Made by a program: the position numbers and the translations under genes. Below, in pieces: positions 7,411 to 39,384 of a DNA stretch of 64,000 nt. The notes below the pieces were generated by a model. The model made no database searches and had not been told where the DNA came from. It was given only the letters and a program-made list of their open reading frames with translations. Source of the stretch: Burkholderiales bacterium (GTDB lineage: Bacteria > Pseudomonadota > Gammaproteobacteria > Burkholderiales > Burkholderiaceae_C); NCBI GenBank assembly GCA_947448955.1, contig CANFPU010000003.1, positions 1 to 64,000 of the forward strand, in the 5' to 3' direction. Each line of letters opens with the position of its first letter. Position 1 is the first letter of the stretch.

Positions 7411-9057
7411 TCAGTTTTCCAATTTCAAGTGCAGGGTACGACCCAGGTGCGGCATCGGAATTTCTATCTCGCGATTGGCGATTGATTTGCTGTGCTTGTA
7501 GCGATAAATATTGACGCTCAAGTCTTTGAATTGCGGAACATTGGTTGAAATATCAATGCTTTTCAATTTTTCGAAGGCATCGGTTTTCAACAGTTCAATC
7601 AAACGCGTCAATTCCGGAACTTCGACGATATCCTTGTTTTCGGCGACAATCAGTTCGACGCCGTATCGGTCGAGCAGATCGAAGATGTCCTGGTCACTGG
7701 CGGCATAAGATTTTACGCCAAACACTTTCATGGTGGCGATCGAGACCAGTATTTTGTCGGCTCGGAGGATAATTTTGTGGCGCTTTGGGTCGCCGATCCT
7801 GATGTCGAATATGAAATTTCCGTCGTGTTTGCAGCAAAAAAGTATTGGCGCCTTGCTCGGGCTCGCCAATACATAGGCAGCGGCTTTTTCATAGCCATTG
7901 ACAAACAGCGCTGGCTCGTTGACTCGGGCCAGGCTGTAGCCGCCGTAGAAGATGGTGAGCAAACCTATGGCGTATTTTTTTAGGGATGGGTTGGTGATTT
8001 CGGCAAGCCAGCGTGAGGCAATGAGTGCGATCGCTGGCGTCATGTAGATGGTGTAGCGCAGGGTATTAGCGTAATAGTTGGAAAATATCGCGAATAGAAT
8101 GAACCACGATATTATCCATGTCATCAATAGGAAGTCCGATGGCTGACGTTTCACCTTGATCATTGTCGCGACGCCGGCGCCAATGAGAATCCAGAACGGG
8201 CGTGGATAAGCCTCCCAGGTGGCTTTGAAATTTGAGCTAAAACGTTCGATTGAAAGAATGCCGCTGGCATTGCTTTCGAGGTGTCCCATGGCCGTCGAGC
8301 CAAATTTCATGGCGTGCATCGCGACGATTGCCAGCGCCACGGCAATGATCAATGATCCTGGCAAGCTCTTCAGCTGAATGACTTTTTTCCATCCGCCCGA
8401 AGCCCAGATTTGAGCCAGCAGGATCGGAAATAGCAGCACCGTCAACTGCTTGGTAAGCAACATCGAGCCGATGATGAGGCCAATGACGACGGATAGCCAA
8501 TGAGAAGGTTTTTTTAAGTAGCCAGAAAAAGCATACAAGGACAGCATCATCATCGCCAAGGCCGGTATTTCGAGCATGATGGCCCGGCTCCACAAGATGA
8601 CCTGCGGACTGACCAAGAATAAAAAAATCGAAAAGAAAACCGGCATCCTGCCCCAGATTGGCTTGGCCCAGGCATACCACGCTAGAATTGTTAATAATAT
8701 AAAAAATAACTCGGTCAGTCGCGCGGTAGCGGCTGAAATTCCAAATGCCAGAAAGAAAATACTTTCGACCAGCGCGAAAAATGGCAGATACCAGGTGAAG
8801 CCTAGCGCAGGATAGTGAACAAAGTATTCAACGGTGTAGTCATAGAGTCGTGCAAACGGGCGATCCTTGAACAGATCAAGCATGAACACACCATCCATTG
8901 CGTGCCGCGACTCATCGGTCCACCAGAAACCGCCGGCATTCAAGCTAGAACCGAAGATCAAGATTGCGGCGGCGAACAGAGCGCCTAGCAGACAGTGATC
9001 AATATTCCATCGAAACAAAATAGGCTCAATTCTGTTTGTTGCCGTCAATTTATTCAT
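7411..9057 (-). CDS. Polytopic membrane glycosyltransferase, GT39/ArnT-like
   Basis: A 548-aa integral membrane protein with about ten hydrophobic segments. After the first membrane segment the periplasmic loop contains GGFWWTDESRHAMDG; the paired acidic residues fit the catalytic/metal-binding loop of lipid-phosphate-sugar-dependent GT-C enzymes (GT39, ArnT, PMT-like). It is the last gene of a minus-strand operon with a GtrA-like protein and a GtrB-like fusion, so it is a good candidate for the periplasmic transferase that moves a sugar from undecaprenyl phosphate to an acceptor. It is clearly more AT-rich than its neighbours, with many Phe/Ile/Lys codons, which suggests horizontal acquisition. 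The acceptor is unknown. Confidence 0.8.
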   Translation of the reverse strand: MNKLTATNRIEPILFRWNIDHCLLGALFAAAILIFGSSLNAGGFWWTDESRHAMDGVFMLDLFKDRPFARLYDYTVEYFVHYPALGFTWYLPFFALVESIFFLAFGISAATARLTELFFILLTILAWYAWAKPIWGRMPVFFSIFLFLVSPQVILWSRAIMLEIPALAMMMLSLYAFSGYLKKPSHWLSVVIGLIIGSMLLTKQLTVLLFPILLAQIWASGGWKKVIQLKSLPGSLIIAVALAIVAMHAMKFGSTAMGHLESNASGILSIERFSSNFKATWEAYPRPFWILIGAGVATMIKVKRQPSDFLLMTWIISWFILFAIFSNYYANTLRYTIYMTPAIALIASRWLAEITNPSLKKYAIGLLTIFYGGYSLARVNEPALFVNGYEKAAAYVLASPSKAPILFCCKHDGNFIFDIRIGDPKRHKIILRADKILVSIATMKVFGVKSYAASDQDIFDLLDRYGVELIVAENKDIVEVPELTRLIELLKTDAFEKLKSIDISTNVPQFKDLSVNIYRYKHSKSIANREIEIPMPHLGRTLHLKLEN

Positions 9058-9167
9058 AATATTTAATCGATTAAGGTCTCGGATTTTGTTTTTGCCCGGA
9101 TCGAAGCGGTCCGTTGATTATTTTCGAGCCTCGGGTCGGGTTGATTCTTGATCACGAGACCTTCGTT

Positions 9168-9575
9168 TCATCGCGTCGGTTGCGCCGCCGGGGGCGTGAA
9201 AACGAAGCGGACCAATAGGCTGTAGGACAACAGAGCCAGCGGTGCCGCCAATATGGCCTGCGCAGTGATCGGGCCATGCACCCAAGCGCCGACCCAGTGA
9301 ATCAGCAGCCAATTGACGAGTCCCAGGCCCAGATAGCTGAGCGCGAAGCGCGGAAATCTCTCCATCATCCGGTTTCGAAAAGCGTAGCCACCGGTGGTGA
9401 CGAAATTGAAGGCGATACCGCAGGCATTTGAAATCACCAGCCCCGCCCAGACCGGCGCGCCAAGCACGATGGCGGCGCTGTAGACGGCAAAGCCGAAAAG
9501 GGTGTTCAGCGCCCCTGCGGCCAAAAATCGCAGCCAGCGCTGTCGATCCGGCGGCACGATGATCACGTTAGTCAC
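9168..9575 (-). CDS. GtrA family membrane protein (putative lipid-linked sugar flippase)
   Basis: A 135-aa protein with four hydrophobic segments and the GtrA-family pattern: WLRFLAAGALNTLFGFAVY at the N-terminus and FNFVTTGGYAFRNR between TM2 and TM3. Members are thought to move undecaprenyl-phosphate-linked sugars across the inner membrane. It sits between the epimerase/GtrB-like fusion and the GT39-like gene, matching the GtrA-GtrB-GtrC order of three-component glycosylation systems. The ORF 9118..9312 overlapping its 3' end is a shadow. Confidence 0.88.
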   Translation of the reverse strand: MTNVIIVPPDRQRWLRFLAAGALNTLFGFAVYSAAIVLGAPVWAGLVISNACGIAFNFVTTGGYAFRNRMMERFPRFALSYLGLGLVNWLLIHWVGAWVHGPITAQAILAAPLALLSYSLLVRFVFTPPAAQPTR

Positions 9576-9693
9576 CGCTCGAAACTGGCTTGAAGGCGAT
9601 TCAAAGCGCCTTTGTCGTCGCAGCGCTTGAAGGGTAGAGCCCGGACCTCAGCCGCCTGGCCGCTGCAGGAACGCCATGGCGCCTCGATCACCT

Positions 9694-11676
9694 TCAACGT
9701 GCTTTTCCGTCGGGCAGCAATTCGGTGGTCGCCCCATTGCGAATCAAGGCCGCTCGGATCAGGCGCGGGCGACCTTTGACCTCGGCCATGATCTTGGCGA
9801 CATACTCGCCCACCAAGCCAACAGCAAACAGATTTGCCGAACCAAACATCAGTATCAGGATCTGCAAGGTCGTGGCGCCCTGTGCCGCGATGCCTGGGAA
9901 CAGCAACTTCAAGCTGGCAGTGACCACCGCCGCAACGGTCGACAGTGCGAGCGCCACGATGCCCACGCTGGTCAGCATCGTCAGCGGCGTGTCACTGAAG
10001 GAGAAGATACCCTTCTTGGCCCACTCGATGTTCTTCAACAAATTGTTGGTCGAACGGCCAAACATGCGTTCTGGCCTCAAATAGTCAACGCCGGTCTGTC
10101 GAAAACCCACATAGGCTCGCAACCCGCGGACGAAAAGATCGCGTTCAGGGCAGTTCAGCAACCAGCCGACGACGCGGCGGTCCATCAGCGAGAAGTCGCC
10201 CGCATCGTGCGGAATGACGATGTAGCTGAAGCGCGCGAATATTCGGTAGAAGAGCTTGTACATCAGACCCCAGAGCATGGGCATCTCGCGCTTCACGCGC
10301 CGCCCATAGATGACGTCCCACCCTTCTTCCCAGCGCTGGTAGAACTGCTCAATGAGTTCAGGCGGATCTTGCAGATCACCATCGAGCAGCACGATGCCGT
10401 CCTTCGTGCACAACTCCATGCCGCTGCGAAATGCCATTTGCGAGCCGAAATTGCGAGAGTGCGAGATCCCGATCACGTGCGGATCACGCAGGCTCAGGTC
10501 GCGGATGATCTGGGCGCTGTCGTCGGGGCTGCAGTCGTTGACGAAGACAATCTCGTAGTCGATGTCGAGCTTCTTGAAAGTCTCGGTCAGGCGCCTGTGC
10601 ATCACCGGAATGGCTTGCCCGTCCTTGTAGCAGGCGATGATGGCTGACACGCTGCGTTTGCGTGCGTTGGGATCGCGCTTGGTCGCAGCGGCGTGCGCCG
10701 CATCGCTCAGCGTGACGACCCATTCGGCGGTGCTGCGTAGCCCTTCCTCCAGGCCGATCCTGGGCCGCCAGCCCAGCTTGGCGATCGCGTTTCGTGGATC
10801 GGCATACCACTCGGCCAGGTCCCAGGCGCGGCCTTCCATGGTGCCGAACTGGGCCTCATCGGTGACGTCGAAAATTCGCCTGGTCGTTGCTGCCAGTTCG
10901 CCAATCGTTGTCTTGGTGCCGGTGCCGATGTTGAAGCTCTGGCCGTACAACTCCGGTTGCATCGCGGTGGCGGTTCGAACAAATGCGGCAACGACGTCAT
11001 CGACATGGATGAAGTCCCGAGAAGTTCGCGCGTCCACAAAAGGCGGCAGCTTGCCGGCCAATGCCTGGCGCAGCACATTGGGAATCAGCCTGGAGGTGTC
11101 CTCGTAGGGCCCGTACACCGCGTAAAGTCGCAGGTTGGCGCAGGGGAAACTCTTGTGTTTCCCCATGTATTGCAGATAGCTCGCCACAGCCACTTTGGAG
11201 ACGGCGTAATGGCTGTTGGGCTCGCAGGGGCTGTCTTCGCTGGGCGCGCTGCAATTGGTGCCGTATTCTGAAGAACTGCCGGCATGTATGAATGCGCAGA
11301 ACTGACGCCCTTGCCGCGCTTGCAACAAGCCAACCAGATTGACGATGGACTGAAAATTTGTCTGGTAAATCAAGCCCCCGTCTTCCTCGAAGGAGTACGC
11401 GCCATAGGCCGCGCAATCAAAGACCGTCTGAGGCTGCAGGGAATCAACCATGTTCTTGGTCGATGCAAAGTCATTCAGGTCGACCACCACCAGCCGCTCG
11501 TCATTGACCTCCTCCAAACGCCAGTTCTTGCCACGGCGGACGGCGGCGTAGACGTCGTTTCGCTCTTTGAGCAAACGCTGAAAGAGGTTAACGCCTATGA
11601 ATCCGGATGCGCCTGTCACTAGGATTGGGCCACGAAGCGCGTGGATATGGGCTTGCAGTTCGGGTATCGCTGCCAT
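9694..11676 (-). CDS. Fusion: NAD-dependent sugar epimerase/dehydratase + GtrB-like polyprenyl-phosphate glycosyltransferase
   Basis: Two enzymes in one 660-aa chain. Residues 17-325 are an extended SDR nucleotide-sugar epimerase: TGASGFIG Rossmann motif, GSSSEYG, catalytic YAVSK at 157-161, and RDFIHVDDV. Residues 342-560 are a GT2 domain of the DPM1/GtrB type: FVNDCSPDDS, the LDGDLQDPPE metal/nucleotide motif at 431-440 and HSRNFGSQMAF. Two C-terminal transmembrane helices follow (about 563-590 and 602-625), as in GtrB/ArnC proteins. The track extends 70 codons upstream into the transketolase gene; the ATG at 11676, two bases after that gene's TAA, fits. The fusion suggests that a sugar made or finished by the first domain is loaded on undecaprenyl phosphate by the second. 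Confidence 0.88.
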   Translation of the reverse strand: MAAIPELQAHIHALRGPILVTGASGFIGVNLFQRLLKERNDVYAAVRRGKNWRLEEVNDERLVVVDLNDFASTKNMVDSLQPQTVFDCAAYGAYSFEEDGGLIYQTNFQSIVNLVGLLQARQGRQFCAFIHAGSSSEYGTNCSAPSEDSPCEPNSHYAVSKVAVASYLQYMGKHKSFPCANLRLYAVYGPYEDTSRLIPNVLRQALAGKLPPFVDARTSRDFIHVDDVVAAFVRTATAMQPELYGQSFNIGTGTKTTIGELAATTRRIFDVTDEAQFGTMEGRAWDLAEWYADPRNAIAKLGWRPRIGLEEGLRSTAEWVVTLSDAAHAAATKRDPNARKRSVSAIIACYKDGQAIPVMHRRLTETFKKLDIDYEIVFVNDCSPDDSAQIIRDLSLRDPHVIGISHSRNFGSQMAFRSGMELCTKDGIVLLDGDLQDPPELIEQFYQRWEEGWDVIYGRRVKREMPMLWGLMYKLFYRIFARFSYIVIPHDAGDFSLMDRRVVGWLLNCPERDLFVRGLRAYVGFRQTGVDYLRPERMFGRSTNNLLKNIEWAKKGIFSFSDTPLTMLTSVGIVALALSTVAAVVTASLKLLFPGIAAQGATTLQILILMFGSANLFAVGLVGEYVAKIMAEVKGRPRLIRAALIRNGATTELLPDGKAR

Positions 11677-11678
11677 CG

Positions 11679-12590
11679 TTAGCCGCCGCGCGCCAGCGTT
11701 TCGAGCAAGCTTTCCACGTCCAGACCTGATTGACGCCGAAGCCATTGCTGCGAGCCGTAACGCGCGTAATGGTGTGCCTTGGCATACAGATGATGAAAGC
11801 GGCGTGGGGTACGGTTGCGGTCGGCCAAATGAAGTGCAAGCTCTGCGCCCAATCCGCTGCGACGGACATGCTCCTCGGCGACACACAGGATATCGGCACG
11901 CGCCATTTGGTCCCAGAGTGCGGGGGGTATTGGATTTCGTTCAATCGGCAGCTCTGACACGACCCACAGATTGGGGCGTTTTTCATGTGGTATCGCTTCG
12001 CAGGCGCCGATGTAGCTCCCTGCCAATGGCCCGACTGCGATGACCACTGCGCCTCTTCCATGCGTGAGCTGGCGCCACGGCGCATAGGGTGGTACCACAT
12101 AGCCTTTTGGTGTGTCGCCTCGGCCCAGCCGGAGATAAGCGGCACGACCAGACGCGCCGGCACGTTCGGCCACAGCGCTCAAGTCCTCGTCAAACGCCGG
12201 TACATAGGCCGAAATATTGGGCAGGCAAAGCATCACGCCGTAGTCCTCGACGGCATGGTGTGTCGGCCCCATCACGCCGTAGCCGTACCCGCCACCATTG
12301 CCGACGATCTTGACGGGCAGCTTGTGGAAAGCAATGTCGTTGCGGATCTGCTCGAACGGCCGGGCATAGCAAAAGGGCGCAATGCTGTAGGTCCAGACTT
12401 CGAAGCCTTGGCGCGACAAGCCTGCCGCGACGGACATCATGTTTTGTTCTGCCACGCCGGCATTGATGAAGCGTTGGCGCATCGCGCTTTGCAGCGGCTC
12501 CAAGGCCATGAAGCCAAGATCGCCTGTGAGAAACAGCATCTTGGGATTGGTCGCGCGCGCGACCATCGCTTCACAGAATTGGATTCTCAT
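11679..12590 (-). CDS. Transketolase-like protein, pyrimidine-binding plus C-terminal domains (split subunit B)
   Basis: A 303-aa protein matching the second half of transketolase. The pyrimidine domain includes FINAGVAEQNMMSVAAGLS (with the conserved Glu that activates TPP) and GGGYGYGVMGPTHHAVEDYG; a C-terminal swivel domain with IAVGPLAGSYIGAC follows. It pairs with the upstream N-terminal half, overlapping it by ATGA. Two-subunit transketolases occur in archaea, in some bacteria and in secondary-metabolite and surface-sugar clusters. Being cotranscribed with glycosyltransferases suggests a special sugar conversion rather than the pentose phosphate pathway. Confidence 0.88.
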   Translation of the reverse strand: MRIQFCEAMVARATNPKMLFLTGDLGFMALEPLQSAMRQRFINAGVAEQNMMSVAAGLSRQGFEVWTYSIAPFCYARPFEQIRNDIAFHKLPVKIVGNGGGYGYGVMGPTHHAVEDYGVMLCLPNISAYVPAFDEDLSAVAERAGASGRAAYLRLGRGDTPKGYVVPPYAPWRQLTHGRGAVVIAVGPLAGSYIGACEAIPHEKRPNLWVVSELPIERNPIPPALWDQMARADILCVAEEHVRRSGLGAELALHLADRNRTPRRFHHLYAKAHHYARYGSQQWLRRQSGLDVESLLETLARGG

Positions 12591-13369
12591 GCTTGCGCCA
12601 GCTCAGCCATGGCGATCTGAAAATTCATTTCAGTCAGAGGAAGGTAATGCGAGTCCATGCGGTTTTCCATGAAGCTGACGCCTCTGCCCTTGACGGTGCG
12701 AAGGGCGATGAAACGCGGTCGATCGGTCTGGCGTTGTAGCGCTGTGCGGATCGCGATGAGGTCATGCCCGTCGATGACCTCGACATCGACTTCAAAGCCT
12801 TGCCAACGCTGCCACAGCGGTGACATGGAGGCCACTTCAGCCGTCAATCCAAAGCCCTGGAGCTCGTTGTGGTCAACCAGCACGGTCAGGTTGGACAGCT
12901 TGTGATGGGCTGCAAAGATCAGCGCTTCCCAGGTGGAACCTTCTTGCCATTCGCCATCTGAAGTCAGGCAAATGACGCGTGCCTGGCTCCCATTGAATCG
13001 CATGCCCAATGCAGTACCCGCGGCCAATGACAGGCCATGCCCCAGACTGCCGGTGGCGAAAGGAATGTCCGGGATACCTGCAGCGGGTGGATGCCCAGCC
13101 AACAGCGTGTCATCTTTGTGAAATTGTTTGAGGTCTTCGTCTTGCAAACGACCCACACTCCACAACGAGACGTAGAGCGCACCTGCCGAATGTCCCTTGG
13201 AAAGAATGAATCGATCTTCCTCGCTCAGGAACTCATGAAAGACCATCAGCATGGCATCGAGCGCCGACAGGTTTCCTCCAATATGACCGACGCCGCTCTC
13301 GAAATGCATCTGCAGCAAGCGACTACGAGCCCGAGTCAATTCATGCTGCGAAATCATGCTTGATGTCAT
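12587..13369 (-). CDS. Transketolase-like protein, TPP-binding domain (split subunit A)
   Basis: First half of a split transketolase (260 aa). Family motifs: SGVGHIGGNLSALDA near the N-terminus, ILSKGHSAGALY, ATGSLGHGLSLAAG, and the TPP/Mg motif SDGEWQEGSTWEALIFAAHHKLSNLTVLVDHN. The track starts at a GTG at 13399; the ATG at 13369 fits the family N-terminus better, with the ATG at 13357 as an alternative. No ribosome site decides the matter. It is the first gene of the minus-strand glycan operon. Confidence 0.86.
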   Translation of the reverse strand: MTSSMISQHELTRARSRLLQMHFESGVGHIGGNLSALDAMLMVFHEFLSEEDRFILSKGHSAGALYVSLWSVGRLQDEDLKQFHKDDTLLAGHPPAAGIPDIPFATGSLGHGLSLAAGTALGMRFNGSQARVICLTSDGEWQEGSTWEALIFAAHHKLSNLTVLVDHNELQGFGLTAEVASMSPLWQRWQGFEVDVEVIDGHDLIAIRTALQRQTDRPRFIALRTVKGRGVSFMENRMDSHYLPLTEMNFQIAMAELAQA

Positions 13370-13743
13370 GGTGGTTGCAGGACTGTCCTGTCGATTCACA
13401 AGGCTGCGGAGTCAACGACGCTCTCCGTGTGAAAAGTCTAGTCGCAGGGTTGATGCGCTGACTGTGAACTTGTGCGCTGCAGGGCCAGCGCGACTTCTCC
13501 GCGCAGAGCTTGCGCATTGAATTTGTGGAGTCGGTGACGAAATCAGCCCAAGATGGAGGTCGTCTCAGCGTCTCGCGACGACATCACGCGTTTCGGTGAA
13601 TGATGCGCACCTGACGACTTTACTGTCGGCCCAAGACAGGGCCTGAGGCGCGTGGTGCTTGGCGGGCGTCAATGCCTGAAGATCGTCGGCTCAGGCCGTA
13701 GCAGTTCACCCGCCAGTGATGAATCGATTGCGCCCTTTGGGTC
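13370..13743. other. Intergenic region upstream of the glycan operon
   Basis: About 370 bases between the ABC permease stop and the transketolase start, both on the minus strand. I see no family-like coding frame, tRNA or clear terminator. A weak minus-strand -10-like TAGACT near 13430 lacks a good -35 partner. It presumably holds the promoter of the glycan operon. Confidence 0.4.
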
Positions 13744-30081: not shown

Positions 30082-31296
30082 CTACTTGACCCAGGTGTTG
30101 AGCTGGATGATCGGCAGCAGCACCGCCAGCACGATCAGCATCACGACCGCGCCCATCGCGACGATCAGCAGTGGCTCAAGAATCGTCGCCAGCGCCATCG
30201 CCCGGCGCTGGACCTCGCCGCTGAGTTGGCGCGCGGCACGGTCGAGCATTTGCGGCAATTGGCCGGTCTGCTCGCCCAAGCGCGCGAACATCGCCAGCAG
30301 GGCCGGAAATCTTTTCTTTGCCGCCAATGCCGATGCCAGCGGCGCGCCCTCGCGGACTTGCACCAAGGCTTCGAGCGCATCGGCGCGCAGCGCGCGGTTG
30401 GCCAAGGTCTCTGCCGCGGCCTGCAGCGCCTTCAGGATGGGCACGCCGGCATTGGCCAGCATCGCCAGCGTGCTGGCGAAGCGCGCCGCGTTGTAGCCCC
30501 GCGCGACCCGGCCGACCAGCGGCAAGCCGAGCCAGGCGGCATCGAAGCGCTGGCGGAACGGCTCTTTCTTCAGCGCCATGGTCAGCACCACACCACCGCC
30601 TGCAGCGGCCAGCAGCACCCCCCAACCCCATTGCCTGACGAAAGCGCTCAGGCCCAGCATCGCGGTCGTCAGCCAGGGCAATGCCCGCTGATTGCTGGTG
30701 AACACACTGGCGACCTGCGGCACCACATAAGTGACCAGAAAAATCACGATCACAAAGGCGATCAGCGAGACGATGGCCGGATAAAGCGCCGCACCCAGCA
30801 GCTTGGCGCGCAGCGCCTGGCGTTCTTCGAGATCGTCGGCCAGGCGCTCCAGCACGGCGCCCAGCGCGCCGCTCTGCTCGCCGGCTGCGACGACCGCGCG
30901 GTAGACATCGTCGAACTCGCGCGGCGCACTGGCCAGCGCCCGGGCAAATGGTGCGCCGGCGTTGACCTCGGCGCGCAGGTGGGCGACGAGGTCGCGCTGG
31001 GCCGGCGAGTCGGCTTCGTCGGACAGGGCGGTCAGTGCGCGCTCTAGCGGCAGCCCGGCGCCCACCAAGCCGGCGAGCTGGCGCGTCCACACCGCCAGCG
31101 CGGTGCTGCCAAACACCCGTCGCGACCAGCGTGAGGCGCCGGCACTTTGCACGCTGGCTGCCAGCGCTTGCACCCCCAGCGGCACCAGGCCCTGGGCGCG
31201 CAACTGCGAGCGGGCGGCCTTGGCGTTTTCGGCTTCGAGCACGCCGGTGCGGGGCTTGCCTTGCGCATCGAGCGCATCGAAGGTGTAGGCGGGCAT
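30082..31296 (-). CDS. gspF: Type II secretion system inner-membrane protein GspF
   Basis: Platform protein of the type II secretion system (404 aa). It begins MPAYTFDALDAQGKPRTGVLEAENAKAAR, typical of GspF, then two T2SSF domains (AVWTRQLAGLVGAGLPLERAL and FASTLAMLANAGVPILKAL) and three membrane helices, the last at the C-terminus (VMLIVLAVLLPIIQLNTW). Contacts the GspE ATPase and the pseudopilin assembly. Last gene of the gspG-F operon. Confidence 0.96.
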   Translation of the reverse strand: MPAYTFDALDAQGKPRTGVLEAENAKAARSQLRAQGLVPLGVQALAASVQSAGASRWSRRVFGSTALAVWTRQLAGLVGAGLPLERALTALSDEADSPAQRDLVAHLRAEVNAGAPFARALASAPREFDDVYRAVVAAGEQSGALGAVLERLADDLEERQALRAKLLGAALYPAIVSLIAFVIVIFLVTYVVPQVASVFTSNQRALPWLTTAMLGLSAFVRQWGWGVLLAAAGGGVVLTMALKKEPFRQRFDAAWLGLPLVGRVARGYNAARFASTLAMLANAGVPILKALQAAAETLANRALRADALEALVQVREGAPLASALAAKKRFPALLAMFARLGEQTGQLPQMLDRAARQLSGEVQRRAMALATILEPLLIVAMGAVVMLIVLAVLLPIIQLNTWVK

Positions 31297-31311
31297 CGGC
31301 GGTTGGCGCTT

Positions 31312-32727
31312 TTAGTCGCGTGTGACGCGCAGCACTTCTTCGAGCGAGGTCACGCCCTCGTCGACCAGGCGCGCACCGTCGTCGCGCATCGGCACGAAGC
31401 CGCCGGTCTTGGCTGCAGCCAGCAACTCGCTCTCGGCGGCGCGACCGTGGATCAGCGCGCGCAGCGCATCGTCGACCACCATCAACTCGTAGACCCCGGT
31501 GCGGCCTTTGTAGCCAGTCTGCCCGCAGGCGGCGCAACCCACCGGGTGCCAGCGGCCCTGGTCGTCGACCCGCTTGCAGGCCGGGCAGAGCTTGCGCACC
31601 AGGCGCTGGGCTTGTGCGCCGAGCAGGCTGCTGCTCAGCAGATAGGGCTCGACGCCCATGTCGATCAAGCGGGTGATGGCGCTCGGCGCGTCGTTGGTGT
31701 GCAAGGTGGCGAGCACCAGGTGGCCGGTCAGCGAGGCCTGGATCGCGATCTGCGCGGTTTCGAAGTCGCGGATTTCGCCGATCATGATCACGTCCGGGTC
31801 CTGGCGCAGGATTGCGCGCAAAGCCTTGCCAAAGGTCAGGTCAATCTTGGCATTGACCTGGGTCTGGCCAATGCCCTCAAGCTCGTACTCGATCGGGTCT
31901 TCGACCGTCAGCACATTGGTGCTGTGGGTGTCGATGCGGCCCAGTGAGGCGTACAGCGTGGTGGTCTTGCCCGAGCCGGTCGGCCCGGTCACCAGCACGA
32001 TGCCGTGGGGTTGGTGCACCAGCCGGTTGAACGAACTCAACACCTCGCCGCTCATGCCCAGCGCTTCGAGCGTGAACTTGGACTCGGTCTTGTCGAGCAG
32101 GCGCAGCACCGCGCGCTCGCCATGCGCCGAGGGCAGCGTGGAGACGCGAACATCAATCGCCCGCCCGCCGATACGCAGGCTGATGCGGCCGTCTTGCGGC
32201 AGGCGTCTTTCGGCAATGTCAAGCTCGGCCATGATCTTCAGGCGCGATATCAGCGCAGCGTGCAGCGCGCGGTTGGGCTGCACCACCTCGCGCAACGTGC
32301 CGTCGACCCGGAAGCGCACCGCGCTGCTGCGCTCGTAAGGTTCGATGTGGATGTCAGACGCGCCGTCCTTGGCCGCTTGGGTCAGCAGCGCGTTGAGCAT
32401 GCGGATGATCGGTGCGTCGTTGGCCGCTTCGAGCAAATCCTCGACCGCCGGCAGGTCTTGCAGCAGCCTTGAGAGGTCGACTTCGCTCTCGACCTCGCCG
32501 ACCACGGTGGCTGCGCTCGATTCGCCGCTGGCGTAGACGCGGGCGATGCGCTCGATCAGCACCGCCGAGTCTTCGCGCTCGACCCGGCTCACCGCATGCA
32601 GGCGCAGCACCTCACTCAGCGCACTGGGGGCCGTGTGGTCGGTGGCCCAGAGCACGCGCTCACGGCCATCGTCCTCGAGCAGCAATTGCTGGGCTTTGGC
32701 AAAGCCGTAGGGCAGGGGGTGTTTCAT
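31312..32727 (-). CDS. gspE: Type II secretion system ATPase GspE
   Basis: Cytoplasmic hexameric ATPase (471 aa) powering pseudopilus growth. Walker A is [16 protein letters not shown], the Asp box [10 protein letters not shown], Walker [18 protein letters not shown], and the His box [19 protein letters not shown] tetracysteine zinc module is present (LCPACKR...GCAACGQTG). The start at 32727 ([12 protein letters not shown]) replaces the longer track start that runs into gspD. Confidence 0.96.
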
Positions 32728-32743
32728 GCCGCACCGAGCCGGT

Positions 32744-34909
32744 TCAACGCGTCGGCGCCGGGCTGGGCGCAGCGCCCGGCTTGTCGGCCTTGGCGGGGGG
32801 CAGCACCGGCCCGGCATTGATCGGCATCACCTGGCTGGGGGCTGGCTGCGCGCCTTGCTGCTCGGCGCGGATCGCCTCGTAGCGATCGAGCGTGAGCGAC
32901 TGCGCGGTCTGCGCGTCGCGCAGCACGACCGGGCGCAGGAACACCAGCAGCACCGACTTGCTGCGTTTGCGGCTCTCGCTGCGGAACAGGTTGCCGACCC
33001 CTGGCAGATCACCCAGCAGTGGCACCTTGTCCTGCCCGCCGTCGTACTGGTCTTTCATCTGCCCGCCCAACACCATGATCTGGCCGTCGTCGGCGACGAT
33101 GGTGGTCTCGACCGAACTCTTGTTGGTGGTTGGCCCGTTGGCGTTGCTGGTCGAATTGGCGACCACGCTGGAGTTCTCTTGGAACACCGTCATCCGCACC
33201 ACGCCGCCCTCGCCGATTTGCGGCTTGATCTTCAGCGTCAAGCCTACGTCTTTGCGCTCGACCGTTTGGAACGGGTTGACCGTGCTGCCACTGGTCCCCG
33301 TATTGGTGAAGCTGCCCGTGACGAAAGGGACGTTCTGGCCAACGACGATCTTGGCTTCCTCGTTGTCCAGCGCGACCAGGTTGGGCGTGGACAGGATGTT
33401 GGTGCCCGAGACGGTTTCAAGGAATCGCGCCAGCGCCCCCAGTGTGTAGACGCCATTGACTTTTTGCAGCAGGCCGACGTTCAGGCCGTTGGTCGCTGCG
33501 CTGGGGGACAGGCCGGTGCTGCCGTTGCCCAACTGCGACAAGGTCAGGATGTTGTTGCCACTGGCACCGAAGTTGGTGCCGGCGGCCAGCCCGAAGCGGT
33601 CGCCTTTGTTGCCGAGCAGGCCTTGCCACTGGAAACCGAGCTCCGCAGCCTTGCTGGCGTCCATCTCGACGATCATCGACTCGACAAAGACCTGGGCCCG
33701 GCGGCCGTCGAGTTGGTCGATCACGCCGCGTATCTGCCGGTACAGCGGCTCGGCGGCCGTGATCACCAGCGAATTGGTCGCCGCGTCGGCCTGGATGAAG
33801 CCGCCGGTGCTGGGTTGGGCCGAGGGTGCGTTGGGCGTCGTGGCCACGCCTGCCGCGTTGGGGCTGGGGCTGGGGCTGGGGCTGGCGGTGGGGGCAGCCG
33901 CGCTGCTGCTGGCGCCAGGACTGGTCGCGCCGCCGCCAAAAGCCGCCCGCAGCACCGCCGCCAATTTGGCGGCATCGGCGTTCTTCAGGTAAACCACATG
34001 GATCGTGCCTGCTGGCCCGCTCAGGCCGGGCCGGTCCAGGCGCTCAATCAGCGCGCGGATGCCGGCCAGCCTGGCCGGGTTGGCCGCGCGGATGATCAGC
34101 GCATTGCTGCGCGAATCGGCCAGCACCGACACGCCGGTGTTCGGTGCGCCGGGGGCTGTCGCGGCGTTGGCGTCGCCGAGTTTTTGCACCATCGCCGCGA
34201 GGTCGGCCGCGATCGCGTGTTGCAGCGGAATCACCTCGACGTCGGTGGCCGCCGGCAGGTCGAGCGCGGCGATGATCTTGGCGATGCGCGACAGGTTGTC
34301 GGCGTAGTCGGTGATCACCAGCGTCGAGTTGCCAGGGTTGGCATTGATCGTGTTGTTCGGGCTGATCAGCGGGCGCAGCACCGCGACCAGGTTGTTCGGA
34401 TTTTCGTGGGTCAGGCGGAAGATCTGGGTGATGACCTGGTCGCCGCGTTGGTTGACTGGCCCGACCGACACCGTGCCAGCCTGCAGCTTGGCGTCGGCCT
34501 CTGGCACCACCTTGAGCAGGCCGGCGTTGTCGACGATGGCAAAACCCAGGCCGCGCAAGGCCGCAAGGTATTGCAGGTAGGCCTCGCGCACCGGCAGGGG
34601 CTGTTCGCTGTAGACGGTGATCACGCCCTTGACGCGCGGGTCGACCAGGATCTGTCGATCGATCATCAGCGCAAAGGCGCGGCTGACGGCTTCGACGTCG
34701 GCGTTGACGAAGTTCAGCGTCACCGGCGTGCTGGCTTTCAGCGCATTGCGGCGTACCGCGGCGCTGCTGGCAGGCGCCGCGTCCTGGGCGGTGGCGGGCC
34801 ACAGTGGCAGCGTCAGCGCGGCGCTCAGCAAGGCCAGGCTGCGGATCGGCCGGCGGGTCTGCGGTCGGTCTGCGCTGCGCGGGGGTCGCGAGGTCTTCAT
34901 GGGAGTCAT
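32744..34909 (-). CDS. gspD: Type II secretion system secretin GspD
   Basis: Outer-membrane secretin (721 aa). A signal-like region ([19 protein letters not shown]) is followed by N0-N3 domains ([53 protein letters not shown]) and the secretin domain ([32 protein letters not shown]). A Ser-Pro tandem stretch between N2 and N3 is encoded by a hexanucleotide repeat. The start at 34909 overlaps the gspN stop (ATGA); the ATG at 34900 is an alternative. The 964-aa track ORF is a read-through of the opposite reading into gspN. Confidence 0.96.
33860..33883. repeat. Hexanucleotide microsatellite (GGGGCT)x4 inside gspD
   Basis: Four exact GGGGCT copies encode a Ser-Pro repeat in the linker of the secretin periplasmic domains. 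Copy-number change would add or remove Ser-Pro pairs without shifting the frame. Confidence 0.85.
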
Positions 34910-35769
34910 CCGATCGAAATGACGGACAGCGCGCCTTGACGCCGACCGATGATGTTGAGCAGGTTGGACAGTGCCGCGTCCAGACCTTCGGCCGCCTGGG
35001 CCTGGCCCCGAAATCGCAGCCCGTTGCCGGTCCACTGGCCACTGCCGCTCAGGCGCAGCGCGCCTTCCAAGGTTTCGAGCTGCAGCTGGTTGGCACCGCC
35101 GTCTTGGGGGCGACCTTGCAGGCTGAGGCGGTAGCTGCCGAGGCTGGCCAGCGACGACAGCCTGGACGACACGGCTTGCAACTCGAGCGCGATCGTGCCT
35201 TCGAGCCGCCACTGGCCTTGCGCCGATTGCAGACTGAGGCCGGGGCCGGCCAATTGCAGCAGTCCGCCCAGCTGCAGCGTGTTCCAGGGCGTTCCCAGGC
35301 CGCTCAGCCAAGCCGCGGGCCAACGGCCGATCACTGGCTGGGCATCCGCCGACCCGGCCGGCGCCAAGGGCTTGAGCTTGAGCGTGTAGCCGCGCCAGCC
35401 GGGCTGCCACAGCAGTTGCAGGCCGGCCTCGACGCAACAGTCTTGCCGCGCAGTGAACGCCAGCCCGAACCCATCGGGCCGCAGCTGCCAGGCCAGCCGG
35501 CCTGGCAAGACCGAGGCATCGTGGCTGCCCGTCCCACCGGTGAGCACCAGCACCGCGCTGCCGTCCCACAGACTGCCGCGCGCTTGCGCCAGCAGCAGCC
35601 GCTCGCCACTGGCCTGGCGCAGCGCTTCGGCCAGCCACTGCGCCGGTGCATTGAAAACCAGTCCGCCGATGGCGCCCAGCAAGGCGCCCCAGAGGCCCCA
35701 GCGCCGGCCGATGCGTTGGGTGCGTTGCCAGCGTCCTGCTTCGGACGTGCTATTTCTCGGCAGGCTCAC
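34906..35769 (-). CDS. gspN: Type II secretion system protein GspN
   Basis: A 287-aa bitopic protein. One N-terminal transmembrane helix (WGLWGALLGAIGGLVFNAPAQWL) is followed by a periplasmic domain with the GspN-like LAQARGSLWDGSAVLVLTGG motif. The start codon is GTG at 35769, overlapping the gspM stop (GTGA). GspN is present in only some type II systems and its precise role is unclear. Confidence 0.88.
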   Translation of the reverse strand: MSLPRNSTSEAGRWQRTQRIGRRWGLWGALLGAIGGLVFNAPAQWLAEALRQASGERLLLAQARGSLWDGSAVLVLTGGTGSHDASVLPGRLAWQLRPDGFGLAFTARQDCCVEAGLQLLWQPGWRGYTLKLKPLAPAGSADAQPVIGRWPAAWLSGLGTPWNTLQLGGLLQLAGPGLSLQSAQGQWRLEGTIALELQAVSSRLSSLASLGSYRLSLQGRPQDGGANQLQLETLEGALRLSGSGQWTGNGLRFRGQAQAAEGLDAALSNLLNIIGRRQGALSVISIG

Positions 35770-36290
35770 CGACCGGCTCCCAGTGCCAGCGTCAGGCTGC
35801 CGTCGTACAGGCCGGGGCTGGTTTGGGTCATGCTGGCTTCAACCACCCGGGCTCTTGCGCCGGCGCGGGCTTCGGCCAGCCAGGCGCCGAGCTGGGTCGG
35901 GTTGACCGCTTTGAGTGCGAGCAGAGCACGGTCGCCTTGCAGGCTGAGCTTGCCCGGCGCGCCCAGCCGCGCGGTGGCGGCGGTCAGCGCGGCATGGGCT
36001 TGTTCGGTGCTCACCGGTGACGCCGCGCGCAGCGCCGCCGCTTCGTTGGCGAGCAGCTGCATCTGCTGCTGTTGGGTCTCGAGCTTGGCAATCTGTGCCG
36101 GTGCGCTGTTCAAGCTGCGCCAGGCCGGCGCGATCGCCAGCGACCACCCGCCCAGCCCGACCAACAGTGCCGCGGCCAAGGTCAGCCCTCGGCGGTCTCG
36201 CAAGCTCAATGCAGCCCAGCGGGACTGCAGCTCGCGCAGCGCGGTGCGGGCTGCCACCAGACTGGGGTGGGGTTCTTTGGCAGACGTCAT
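35766..36290 (-). CDS. gspM: Type II secretion system protein GspM
   Basis: A 174-aa bitopic inner-membrane protein. A short cytoplasmic N-terminus, one transmembrane helix (GLTLAAALLVGLGGWSLAIAPAW) and a periplasmic ferredoxin-like domain are predicted. Identified by position between gspL and gspN and by size; GspM proteins diverge strongly. Overlaps gspL by ATGA. It pairs with GspL in the inner-membrane platform. Confidence 0.88.
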   Translation of the reverse strand: MTSAKEPHPSLVAARTALRELQSRWAALSLRDRRGLTLAAALLVGLGGWSLAIAPAWRSLNSAPAQIAKLETQQQQMQLLANEAAALRAASPVSTEQAHAALTAATARLGAPGKLSLQGDRALLALKAVNPTQLGAWLAEARAGARARVVEASMTQTSPGLYDGSLTLALGAGR

Positions 36291-37564
36291 GGCAGCGGAG
36301 TGGTTTTGGCGCGTTGGATCAGCAGCCGGCCTTCGGCCATGTCCAGGCTCCAGCCGGCGGCCTGCAGCCGCTGGCGCAATTGATCGATTTGTGGCGCTTG
36401 CCAGCCGGCCGCGCTCAGATTCAGCCGGCCAGGCTCAAAACGCAGCTGTGCGGCGGGCGCCTGGCCTGGCGGCCAAGCGGCGGCGGCGGCGGCGAGCATG
36501 GGCTCGAGATCGTCTGGGCCTGGCACGCCCGCTGCCGCGCGCAGTGCAGCGGTCTCCTGCTGCATCTGCAGCGGTGCATCGAGTACCGCGCGCACCTGCG
36601 GATGGCTGCTGCGCAGCAGCGCATCCATGGAGGCTCTCAGCTGGTTCAGTGCGCGTTGTTGCTGCCAGGCCATCAGGTTGATCGCCGCCAATTGCAGCAG
36701 CAGCAAGCTCAGCAGACCCAGCCGGACCGGCCGCCAAGCGGGGCTCAGCAGCCGTCGCGCCAGCTTGCCCAGCGCCAGGCTGCCTCGGCGTTGCGGCGTG
36801 AGGTCGAATTGCAACAGATTCCAGCGCGAGCGCAAGGCCGCCAAGGCCTGCTCGGCGGTGCTGCTGACGGCCACCGCTGTGCCCAGCCAGCGCTCGGCCG
36901 CTGCCGCGGCGGCCGGCGTGGCCGAAAATTGGGCGCCACGGGCGCTCCAGCGCAGTTGCAGGCTTCGCGCCAGGCTACCGGTCAGGGGCACGCACAGCGC
37001 GCTGTCGGCGTCGCGCAGCGCCAACCACTGCACATCGGCGCCGAATGCGTCGTGGGCATTGAAAAAGTGGCCGCTCGGCGCTTGGCTGTCCGCGCCTGCG
37101 GCCAGGCCTTCGGGCGGCAGTGCGGGTGCGAGCGCAGGCACCAGCCGGTCGACCGACAGGCCGGCAGCGGCGAGCGCGGCGAGCTGGGCTTGCAGGCCCG
37201 GTTTGTTCAACGCGGCCACCCAGCCAGGCGCGCCTGGTGCCGCCTCAGGTGCCAGCGCCAGATGCACTTGGTCATCATCGGCCAGCAGCTGCTCTTCCAG
37301 CACCCCAGCCAAGGCTGCACGCATGCGGTTGGCCGGTGCGCGCGGCAAGATTGGCCGGTGCCATGCCACCGCGTCTGCCGGCAGCACGGCCACCACGCTG
37401 TCGGCTTTGGGGCACAGCGCGGGTGCCGAATCGCCTTGCCGCGTCAGCGCGATGCCGTCTTCGCTGAGCAGCCAGCTCAGCGTGGCGGCGCCCGAAGGCT
37501 CAGCCGCCGCTGAGACCGCGGGGACCGCACGCAGCGCCGGCAACAGGATCACGAGCAAGGACAT
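36287..37564 (-). CDS. gspL: Type II secretion system protein GspL
   Basis: A 425-aa platform protein. The cytoplasmic actin-like domain binds GspE (SGAATLSWLLSEDGIALTRQGDSA at the start). A transmembrane helix near residue 265 (RLGLLSLLLLQLAAINLMAW) is followed by a periplasmic ferredoxin-like domain. The track start at 37663 is too far upstream; the ATG at 37564 is used. Confidence 0.9.
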   Translation of the reverse strand: MSLLVILLPALRAVPAVSAAAEPSGAATLSWLLSEDGIALTRQGDSAPALCPKADSVVAVLPADAVAWHRPILPRAPANRMRAALAGVLEEQLLADDDQVHLALAPEAAPGAPGWVAALNKPGLQAQLAALAAAGLSVDRLVPALAPALPPEGLAAGADSQAPSGHFFNAHDAFGADVQWLALRDADSALCVPLTGSLARSLQLRWSARGAQFSATPAAAAAAERWLGTAVAVSSTAEQALAALRSRWNLLQFDLTPQRRGSLALGKLARRLLSPAWRPVRLGLLSLLLLQLAAINLMAWQQQRALNQLRASMDALLRSSHPQVRAVLDAPLQMQQETAALRAAAGVPGPDDLEPMLAAAAAAWPPGQAPAAQLRFEPGRLNLSAAGWQAPQIDQLRQRLQAAGWSLDMAEGRLLIQRAKTTPLP

Positions 37565-37714
37565 GGCAGGGTCGGCGGCGGGTGGCCGGCGGGCACGGTA
37601 AGGGGCAAAGGGACGGGCGCGATGGTGGCCGATGGCGGCCGGTCTCGACCGGTTGTTGGACAAGCGGTGCCGAGATTGTGCGGTAGCGGGCGATCGGTCG
37701 ACATCGCGGCGGGC

Positions 37715-38659
37715 TCAGCGCGGCAACAGGCTCAGGTCAGCGGCGCGCTGGTGCTGGATCGCCACCACCTCCAGACCGCCGCGGCGCTCGACCAGGGTTT
37801 GCTCGGTCAGCACGCGCTGGTCGATCCGCAGCCGGCCGCGGATCTCGAAAAATGCCGACTTGACATCGACATCCCGCGGCTCGAGCGTCACGCCCTGGCC
37901 CAGCACATCGGTGGCGTCGGCCAGGTTGCGCATGGCCTGGCGTTGTCTGGCTTGGACCAGACGGTCCGCGCCGCCCAAATCCAGCCCGGCGATCACGCCG
38001 GCCAGCACCTCGCGCGACGCGGTGTTGAGATTGATCGGTGTGGCCACCGGCAGCAACACCACCACCTTGCCCAGGCGGGCAATCGTCGCCGCGTCCAACC
38101 CGAGCCAGGCCAGGTCTGCCAGTTGCTGCGGCGGCAGCGGTGCGTTGCTGTCTCCGGATCGGCTCGCGGCCAGCAAGCCGTCGGCGAGCAGCGCTGCGGT
38201 TTCGCTGGGCAGGCCGGCGCTGTCACACAGGCGCTGCAGCATCGCCTGCTGGGCGGGCACCAGCTTGCTGTCGAGCACCAGGTTGCGCAGGTTGTAGCGC
38301 GACTGGGCGTCGGTGATGCCCCCAGCCAGAAAGGCCTCCGGGCCTTCGTCGGCGTTGTGGTCGCGGTCGGTGGCCAGAAAAGTCGACAGTCTGGCCTCGG
38401 CCAGCGGCGTGGCCCAAGGCTCGCTCAGACTGGTGGCACGGCCGGATCGGGCGTCTTCGCGCAGGATCAGCCGGGCCCAGTCGAGCGCGCCCTGCAAGAT
38501 CCAGCCCGACTGGGCCCGGCTGCGTTCGGCGGACTCGACCTGTACCGCTTTCCACTGTTGCCAGACCATGCCCGAAGCGAGCGTGGCGACCACGGTCAGC
38601 AAGACCATCGCCACCAGCAAGGCGGCGCCCCGGGACGGTTTGTGGCGCAGGTGGTTCAT
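37715..38659 (-). CDS. gspK: Type II secretion system minor pseudopilin GspK
   Basis: Large minor pseudopilin of 314 aa that caps the pseudopilus tip with GspI and GspJ. The prepilin-type leader RHKPSRG is followed by AALLVAMVLLTVVATLASGMV. As in other GspK proteins the usual Glu at +5 is absent. The insert typical of GspK is present (AGGITDAQSRYNLRNLV and INLNTASREVLAGVIAGL, a helix-hairpin-helix-like segment). The start at 38659 overlaps gspJ by ATGA. Confidence 0.93.
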   Translation of the reverse strand: MNHLRHKPSRGAALLVAMVLLTVVATLASGMVWQQWKAVQVESAERSRAQSGWILQGALDWARLILREDARSGRATSLSEPWATPLAEARLSTFLATDRDHNADEGPEAFLAGGITDAQSRYNLRNLVLDSKLVPAQQAMLQRLCDSAGLPSETAALLADGLLAASRSGDSNAPLPPQQLADLAWLGLDAATIARLGKVVVLLPVATPINLNTASREVLAGVIAGLDLGGADRLVQARQRQAMRNLADATDVLGQGVTLEPRDVDVKSAFFEIRGRLRIDQRVLTEQTLVERRGGLEVVAIQHQRAADLSLLPR

Positions 38660-39384
38660 GGCGTCGGTGCCAGCATCACATCGCGCAGCAACCGGCCTTC
38701 GGGCAGGTCGATCTGCAGGCGCACGCCGCTGGGCAGCAAGGTCCGCTGGGCCTTGCCGTTGGTGGCGCCACTCGTGGCACCGGCGGCACTGGCGGCGCTG
38801 CCAGGCGCTGCCGCCGCCGCGGCCGTTTGCGAGTTGGCTGCCAAGGCGACGTCGCCGCTCGATTGGGCATTGCTCCAGCCCTGACCGCGCCAGAAAAATA
38901 TTTGCCAATCGCTCACACCGTCGGCCAGACGGAGCTGGCCGGCCTCCTGGCCTTGCAGCTGCTGGCTCGCCTGCCAGACCTGCTGCAACTCGCCGACGCG
39001 GGTCACCAGCGGGCTGCTCCAGCGCCGCCAGATGCCTTCGCGCAGCGACCAGACGACGATCTGCACCCCACCTTCGGCGCGGCGGGCGATGCGCATCGCG
39101 CTGCCGTCAAAACTCAGGCCGGGCACCAGCGGGCTGTCGAACGTCGCGGCCAGGTCCTGCTCCCACTGCCCGATCAGCGCCGACAGGCGCAGCGTTCGTT
39201 CGCTGGCGGCGGCGGCAATTTCTCGTGCGCGGGTCATGCTCGCGACGCCTTGCCAACCCATCGCGGCAACCACGGCCATGATCACCAGCGCGACCAGGAC
39301 TTCGACCAGCGTGAAGCCTGGCACTGGTCGAACAGACCTCGGGCAGGAACGGGTGGCGTGGACCATGTTCAGGGGCTGCTCCAT
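38656..39384 (-). CDS. gspJ: Type II secretion system minor pseudopilin GspJ
   Basis: A 242-aa minor pseudopilin with the class III signal PGFTLVEVLVALVIMAVVAAMGW, cleaved after Gly by the prepilin peptidase. The body matches GspJ (LSALIGQWEQDLAATF, VVWSLREGIWRRWSSP). The leader before the cleavage site is long (about 23 residues), so an internal ATG at 39366 could be the real start. No prepilin peptidase gene is found in this window. Confidence 0.92.
   Translation of the reverse strand: MEQPLNMVHATRSCPRSVRPVPGFTLVEVLVALVIMAVVAAMGWQGVASMTRAREIAAAASERTLRLSALIGQWEQDLAATFDSPLVPGLSFDGSAMRIARRAEGGVQIVVWSLREGIWRRWSSPLVTRVGELQQVWQASQQLQGQEAGQLRLADGVSDWQIFFWRGQGWSNAQSSGDVALAANSQTAAAAAAPGSAASAAGATSGATNGKAQRTLLPSGVRLQIDLPEGRLLRDVMLAPTP

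Follow-up and report, generated by a model that had tools for sequence, protein, structure and literature searches.

A split-transketolase and SDR-GtrB fusion cassette proposed to make branched envelope sugars in Proteobacteria and Eremiobacterota

Gene layout and genomic context of the locus

We analyzed the first 64,000 nucleotides of contig CANFPU010000003.1 of a Burkholderiales bacterium (assembly GCA_947448955.1), referred to below as the window, in which five consecutive minus-strand genes encode the two halves of a split transketolase (TK-N and TK-C), a fusion of a short-chain dehydrogenase/reductase (SDR) with a family 2 glycosyltransferase (GT2), a GtrA-family protein and a PMT_2/GT39-like protein. 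A sequence-only reading had taken them for a Gtr-type glycosylation system that makes its own unusual sugar. The five genes, their order and the ATGA overlap of the transketolase halves were confirmed by the open reading frames (ORFs) and Pfam, and the Gtr-type parts, a GtrB-like GT2 and GtrA, by family matches. The features are as follows (ThDP, thiamine diphosphate; Und-P, undecaprenyl phosphate).

12587..13399, minus strand: TK-N, ThDP-binding half of a split transketolase (PF00456 Transketolase_N, E 1.7e-29)
11679..12590, minus strand: TK-C, pyrimidine-domain half of the split transketolase (PF02779 Transket_pyr, E 6.2e-21)
9694..11676, minus strand: SDR::GT2 fusion protein, starting at ATG 11676 (Epimerase, 2.7e-45, and Glycos_transf_2, 5.8e-24, in a single frame; Pfam and NCBIfam)
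9168..9575, minus strand: GtrA-family small membrane protein, putative Und-P-sugar flippase (PF04138 GtrA_DPMS_TM, E 3.2e-11)
7411..9057, minus strand: PMT_2/GT39-like polytopic protein, putative periplasmic transferase (PF13231, E 5.9e-10)

The likely start of TK-N is ATG 13369 rather than GTG 13399, and the closest solved relative of this protein is the N-terminal chain of the Carboxydothermus split transketolase (6yak, E 1.4e-51), to which TK-C is likewise related (6yaj, E 3.7e-30). A Pfam search found no Transketolase_C match in the window TK-C, unlike in AptB of Escherichia coli SE15 and the TK-C of Methylovirgula. The stop of TK-N and the start of TK-C share the ATGA at 12587-12590, and the ATG of the fusion gene sits 2 nt past the TK-C stop; the alternative start GTG 11886 given in the ORF list falls within TK-C and was rejected as a mechanical call. 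In the fusion protein the SDR occupies residues 18-322 and a GtrB-like polyprenyl-phosphate GT2 residues 343-640. The PMT_2/GT39-like protein has 8 hydrophobic segments; its AlphaFold2 (AF2) model, made from the single sequence without an alignment, reached a mean predicted local distance difference test score (pLDDT) of 39. The three upstream genes are likely to form one operon. The inclusion of gtrA and the PMT_2 gene, which the earlier reading had also assumed, is only plausible, because the spacers are wide (118 bp from the fusion gene to gtrA, 110 bp from there to the PMT_2 gene) and the locus showed no more promoter-like or terminator-like sites than shuffled sequence.

The host genome (4.54 Mb, 324 contigs, 95% complete, 6.5% contamination) carries the cassette as an accessory element. 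It was found in two of 21 genomes of the genus, two more of which hold distant transketolases (32-36%), and its region has a GC content of 48.6-61.5% by gene, the PMT_2 gene being the lowest at 48.6%, vs 66-67% in both neighbor genes. The upstream permease gene is present in 11 of the 21 genomes. In five of the nine that have this permease gene without the cassette, the xanthine-dehydrogenase-like gene found downstream of the cassette directly adjoins it, and the cassette was therefore probably inserted between these two genes; in the other four the xanthine-dehydrogenase-like gene was not seen within the flank available. A phage-borne Gtr cassette was considered and rejected: TK-C matches in phage records were weak (at most 31% identity among the best 10 of 20), and viral contigs gave no match to the fusion pattern. 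Elsewhere in the window, at 30082-38908, lie minus-strand ORFs resembling type II secretion genes, which by eye we take to be GspE/F/D/L/K-like.

Conservation of a three-gene core

A scan of genome contigs with peptides of the fusion protein alone gave 14 loci, whose sources include Betaproteobacteria, Methylococcaceae, Azorhizobium, Roseiarcus and three Eremiobacterota records. A Methylobacterium aquaticum plasmid with a fusion homologue of 61% identity came from a search of plasmids; TK-N and TK-C lie just upstream of the fusion gene in 13 of the 14 loci, on the plasmid and in the window. TK-C by itself was the query of an independent search in evenly drawn genomes, 369 from the class and 398 from the phylum; it gave seven non-self matches of at least 48% identity, six of which have a fusion gene adjoining the transketolase pair. 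In the seventh (L117, 8481-12070) the pair is followed by a methyltransferase replacing the SDR and then by a GT2 with 40% identity to that of the window. Altogether, TK-N and TK-C stand directly upstream of the fusion gene on the same strand in 21 of 22 fusion loci of Proteobacteria and Eremiobacterota, which places the order beyond chance, and the SDR and GT2 share a single reading frame in all 22. The exception, L029 (5320-8163 and 8311-11959; Eremiobacterota), has a window-type fusion gene, and a distant transketolase pair on the opposite strand adjoins another GT2; the same stretch also bears rmlB, rmlA, rmlD, rfbG and a C-methyltransferase gene.

The suggested link between the transketolase and sugar loading is thus borne out by this order, and a neighborhood conserved nowhere, which the earlier reading had named as grounds for giving it up, is not what was found. 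The conserved core consists of three genes, not the five first proposed, and the export genes around it are variable. Among the window-type split transketolase pairs (hereafter class A; 22 loci including the window and L117), GtrA is near seven of the other 21 (8/22 with the window), and a homologue of the PMT_2 gene occurs at the same place only in the same-genus locus L021. S-adenosylmethionine (SAM) methyltransferases recur near the cassette elsewhere, as two families with six loci each (F3 and F4, two representatives of each checked by Pfam); none adjoins the window cassette. Large polytopic proteins without a Pfam match were also observed near the cassette (L030:11925-13649, L026:9405-11327 and L024:13767-15260) and are candidate GT-C transferases. 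Among the papers listed by searches of open-licence PubMed Central (PMC) full texts we recognized no description of the three-gene cassette.

It is very improbable that the pair is an ordinary accessory transketolase that merely adjoins a Gtr cluster. The cassette is indeed accessory, and its site is empty in relatives, as such an explanation would have it; against it stand a gene order shared by 21 of 22 fusion loci from two phyla, intergenic gaps close to zero in the window, and a further, full-length transketolase of the host genome, encoded on contig C16 (508 bits). The last finding also removes the possibility, raised by the earlier reading against itself, that the pair is the only transketolase of the genome.

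Active site of the transketolase and predicted functions of the fusion protein

In a tree of split transketolase pairs the 22 class A pairs form one clade on a long stem with an ultrafast bootstrap (UFBoot) support of 100, and an earlier tree of 57 loci, with a poorly trimmed outgroup, gave the clade a support of 1.0. Active-site residues were counted against the host genome's own transketolase using E. coli numbering; the S385 column was dropped because its mapping was unreliable, and L067, with a truncated TK-N, was excluded from both the count and the UFBoot tree. The catalytic Glu411, His100, His261 and His473 are kept in 22/22 class A pairs; His26 and His66 are kept in 21 and fall in a gap in the remaining one. 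The equivalent of Asp469, which in normal transketolases recognizes the acceptor alpha-hydroxyl, is absent from all 22 (Met in 20, the window among them, and Gln in two), and the equivalent of His461, normally a phosphate contact, is Gly in all 22. Moreover, SDG replaces GDG throughout, a change also seen in related transketolases. The class A enzymes have thus, by sequence, retained the catalytic machinery and altered the acceptor site, and the window pair has neither residue expected of a central-metabolism transketolase. Among 34 aligned pairs outside class A, Asp occupies the 469 column in two (L083 and L125), and AptAB of E. coli SE15 is also without it.

Two other products of the pair have to be weighed here. 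It is rather improbable that the pair builds an unbranched ketose or a rare aldose phosphate, to be activated by another enzyme, epimerized or reduced by the SDR and loaded by the GT2. Transketolases normally build ketose phosphates, and the catalytic residues for this are kept; the acceptor and phosphate contacts for an aldose, however, are those lost in 22/22, and neighbor clustering and Pfam searches of 30 neighbor proteins from selected loci showed no recurrent kinase or nucleotidyltransferase next to the cassette, only L031 having rmlA. It is quite improbable that the pair has become another kind of ThDP enzyme, for acyloin formation or long-chain branching with a larger donor, so that the branch would have other than two carbons. 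The SDG motif and the lack of a Transketolase_C match in the window TK-C would suit such a change, but SDG occurs in related transketolases too, and the His residues with which transketolases hold the two-carbon donor unit by its hydroxyl are kept. A further point in its favor is that YerE-like enzymes, of a different ThDP family, transfer short to long chains, as stated in the part of PMC12247030 that deals with them.

The AF2 model of the fusion protein has a mean pLDDT of 78.6. Its GT half is assigned to the GtrB-like polyprenyl-phosphate glycosyltransferases by Pfam, NCBIfam, PDB and fold comparisons, its solved relatives being ArnC and Synechocystis GtrB sll0501 (PDB 5ekp, 9nyc), which has 36% identity and a matching fold and, unlike the cassette protein, carries no fused SDR. 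The solved relatives of the SDR half are UDP-glucose 4-epimerases. Outside class A, the best matches of the window SDR in the compared set were SDRs of CDP-sugar clusters, which also contain a transketolase or C-methyltransferase-like gene. They share with it an EYG signature and an Arg, not an Asp, near the end of strand 2 (VRR in the window); across class A this site is varied and lacks Asp, and the GalE-like control L027_1 (LDN) and an RmlB control have acidic residues there. The window SDR lacks the hallmark residues of two candidate functions. A 4,6-dehydratase acting on nucleoside diphosphate (NDP) sugars has an Asp-Glu acid pair as part of its TDE motif, and the window has HAGSSSEYG instead of STDEVYG, with the pair absent; in a GalE-type 4-epimerase strand 2 ends with an acidic residue that serves NAD binding, and this is absent too. 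A fold search with the SDR half returned many epimerases and dehydratases at close Z scores, and the shared fold alone does not decide its function. The residues suggest that the domain, first called a sugar epimerase, is probably an NADPH ketoreductase. An oxidizing role may still be allowed by the model, because the nearest folds, at close Z among many SDRs, are 4-epimerases.

Proposed pathway and its precursor

We propose, with an even chance of being right, that the product of the cassette is a sugar with a two-carbon branch, carried on undecaprenyl phosphate. A housekeeping enzyme would first provide a keto-sugar nucleotide, for which the best single guess is dTDP-4-keto-6-deoxyglucose made by RmlB. 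TK-N/TK-C, with a ketose phosphate or hydroxypyruvate as donor, would then place a hydroxyacetyl unit on the ketone carbon, giving a branched sugar nucleotide with a tertiary alcohol, and the SDR domain would use NADPH to reduce the ketone of the side chain, leaving a 1,2-dihydroxyethyl branch. Judged by protein family, the fused GtrB-like domain would transfer the sugar to Und-P, the fusion channeling a rare intermediate; GtrA would flip the Und-P-sugar, and the sugar would then be attached to an envelope polymer by the PMT_2-type protein or, in other hosts, by a different transferase. In this form the earlier suggestion of a sugar with a branch or two extra carbons is supported, its chemistry being deduced from sequence.

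None of the cassette enzymes clearly supplies a keto-sugar nucleotide, and the precursor is not encoded nearby; the system, first described as self-contained, probably depends on one from outside. Among the 20 genomes with the cassette (including G446, the genome of L117, which is without the SDR part), RmlB was found above the cut-off in 17, vs 81 of 143 in the class sample, a weak enrichment (p 0.024 with the host genome left out and relatedness uncorrected), and at L031 an rmlB-rmlA-rmlC set lies about 250 bp upstream of TK-N. On these grounds dTDP-4-keto-6-deoxyglucose or its epimer is the leading, weakly supported, acceptor.

Split transketolases outside class A are found with other sugar genes. 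We compared 35 such loci, made up of 15 of the 17 non-self places of the class search (the other two being class A), four plasmid records, L029, and 15 of 20 regions of the phylum search (mostly best matches, five being class A), the phylum part being a selection and not a census. Within 7 kb, 11 of the 35 have both rfbF and rfbG, for CDP-glucose synthesis and 4,6-dehydration, 10 an rfbH-like gene, 10 a GtrB-like GT2 and 18 an SDR. The order is rfbF-rfbG-SDR-rfbH-TKN-TKC, facing GT2-GtrA, on Methylovirgula pHY1 (L064:3964-11339), rfbF-rfbG-TKN-TKC-SDR-GtrA-GT2 in L074 and rfbF-rfbG-rfbH-TKN-TKC in L127; a plasmid of the Gram-positive Paenibacillus (L062:7097-9004) has rfbF-rfbG-methyltransferase-SDR::TKN-TKC, the SDR being fused to the transketolase N-half. 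Roseibium has rfbF-rfbG-aminotransferase-methyltransferase-SDR-GT2 with GtrA and GT39, and without a transketolase. This second family of split transketolases within CDP-deoxysugar clusters (L064, L074, L078, L119-L121, L123, L127 and L130) provides the clearest candidates for branching of CDP-4-keto sugars by a transketolase. In the host genome itself, on contigs other than that of the cassette, we observed a cluster rfbF-rfbG-rmlC-C-methyltransferase-SDR (L069, contig C8) and a further rfbF-rfbG set, accompanied by the first part of rfbH at the contig end (L036, contig C309).

Several findings weigh against the proposed branching pathway. None of the 22 class A loci has rfbF and rfbG within 7 kb, vs 11/35 of the other split transketolases (p 0.004, relatedness ignored), and rfbG is above the cut-off in only five of the 20 cassette genomes vs 25 of 143 in the class (4/19 vs 24/142 with the host genome left out, p 0.75). 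A substrate deduced from the related clusters is therefore not transferable to class A, and the CDP-linked substrate that they had suggested for the window type was rejected. Three of the 20 cassette genomes have no RmlB hit above the cut-off. The window SDR has just 24-29% identity to the CDP-cluster SDRs, and the solved chains nearest to it by fold are UDP-hexose 4-epimerases. Transketolases without Asp469 include catabolic ones, so the loss of this residue is no proof of a sugar-nucleotide acceptor; the pair of Caballeronia L065 is catabolic, and on an Azospirillum plasmid (L063:5430-11843) the genes flanking the pair are annotated as encoding B12-binding radical SAM and cobalamin-dependent proteins.

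Some of these points would suit a cassette needing no outside dehydratase, in which the SDR oxidizes a common UDP-sugar at C4 and, once the transketolase has added its unit to the short-lived ketone, reduces the branch as well. No CDP-dehydratase genes accompany the cassette, the closest folds to its SDR half are 4-epimerases, and rfbG and rmlB are below the cut-off in 15/20 and 3/20 of its genomes, respectively. We nevertheless consider this scheme unlikely: the strand-2 end of the SDR is without the NAD-type Asp of GalE and RmlB, and the window Arg is as in the CDP-cluster reductases.

Comparison with known systems and significance

By its sequence the cassette may be regarded as a variant of the Gtr-type and ThDP-branching systems. 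AptAB of E. coli SE15 resembles the window pair in being a split transketolase without Asp469 in a branched-sugar pathway, and differs from it in sequence (27.8% identity) and in adjoining ABC transporter, kinase and regulator genes; a sugar transporter/kinase operon of this type is present at L065 and in E. coli SE15 and absent from the window cassette. AptAB releases dihydroxyacetone phosphate, a ketone, and the reverse reaction therefore adds two carbons to a ketone. The use of AptAB in D-apiose degradation is described in the part of PMC13001218 on this pathway.

Three-component Gtr glycosylation consists of GtrA, GtrB and a specific transferase, as outlined in the relevant part of PMC7389260, and the window likewise encodes a GtrB-type GT2 and GtrA, together with a variable protein of several membrane spans that is the putative last transferase. 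Unlike in those systems, the GtrB part here forms one protein with an SDR and, in 21/22 loci, follows a split transketolase; GtrA was not seen near most cassette loci, and no class A copy was seen in the phage and viral collections. As to ThDP enzymes, in the portion of the 2025 review (PMC12247030) devoted to yersiniose, YerE branches CDP-3,6-dideoxy-4-keto-glucose, a synthesis that the CDP-linked split-transketolase clusters parallel. The proposed logic is shared with the cassette, in that a ThDP enzyme extends a keto-sugar nucleotide and a reductase works on the added branch, the sugar being destined for an envelope glycan. The cassette enzyme differs in belonging to the transketolase family, with a split gene (Transketolase_N and Transket_pyr being its best matches), and not to the decarboxylases, in a proposed unit that would be two-carbon and hydroxylated, and in a window type not linked to CDP genes. 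Section 2.3 of the same review presents split-gene transketolases of Streptomyces antibiotics, proposed and untested, that would add hydroxyacetyl to keto sugars; it reports no keto-sugar-branching transketolase characterized in vitro and lists only Streptomycete candidates. Those of miharamycin and amipurimycin, likened here by description, are also split, have a proposed keto-sugar acceptor and act after an oxidoreductase, but the 13 sequences given in that section are all from Streptomycetes, whereas the cassette belongs to Proteobacteria and Eremiobacterota and is joined to polyprenyl-phosphate loading.

That an envelope sugar is derived with the help of a transketolase, as the sequence-only reading broadly supposed, is better supported than its author could know. 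A wider proposal, which we hold tentatively and at somewhat less than an even chance, is that a portable cassette of Proteobacteria and Eremiobacterota makes undescribed envelope sugars, namely hexoses branched with 4-C-hydroxyacetyl or 4-C-(1,2-dihydroxyethyl), which a ketone-accepting split transketolase would build while the hexose is a sugar nucleotide and an SDR::GtrB protein would pass straight on to Und-P. The loci, some of them in named isolates such as Variovorax sp. J22R133 (L034) and Ramlibacter paludis (L027), are compact enzyme sets with a recognizable residue change, which makes the question of keto-sugar acceptance by transketolases directly testable. If the proposal is true, such envelope sugars would be predictable from DNA, the enzymes would be biocatalysts for chiral tertiary alcohols, and the branching by transketolases that is proposed, and as yet unproven, for Streptomyces antibiotics would have its envelope counterpart in the cassette.

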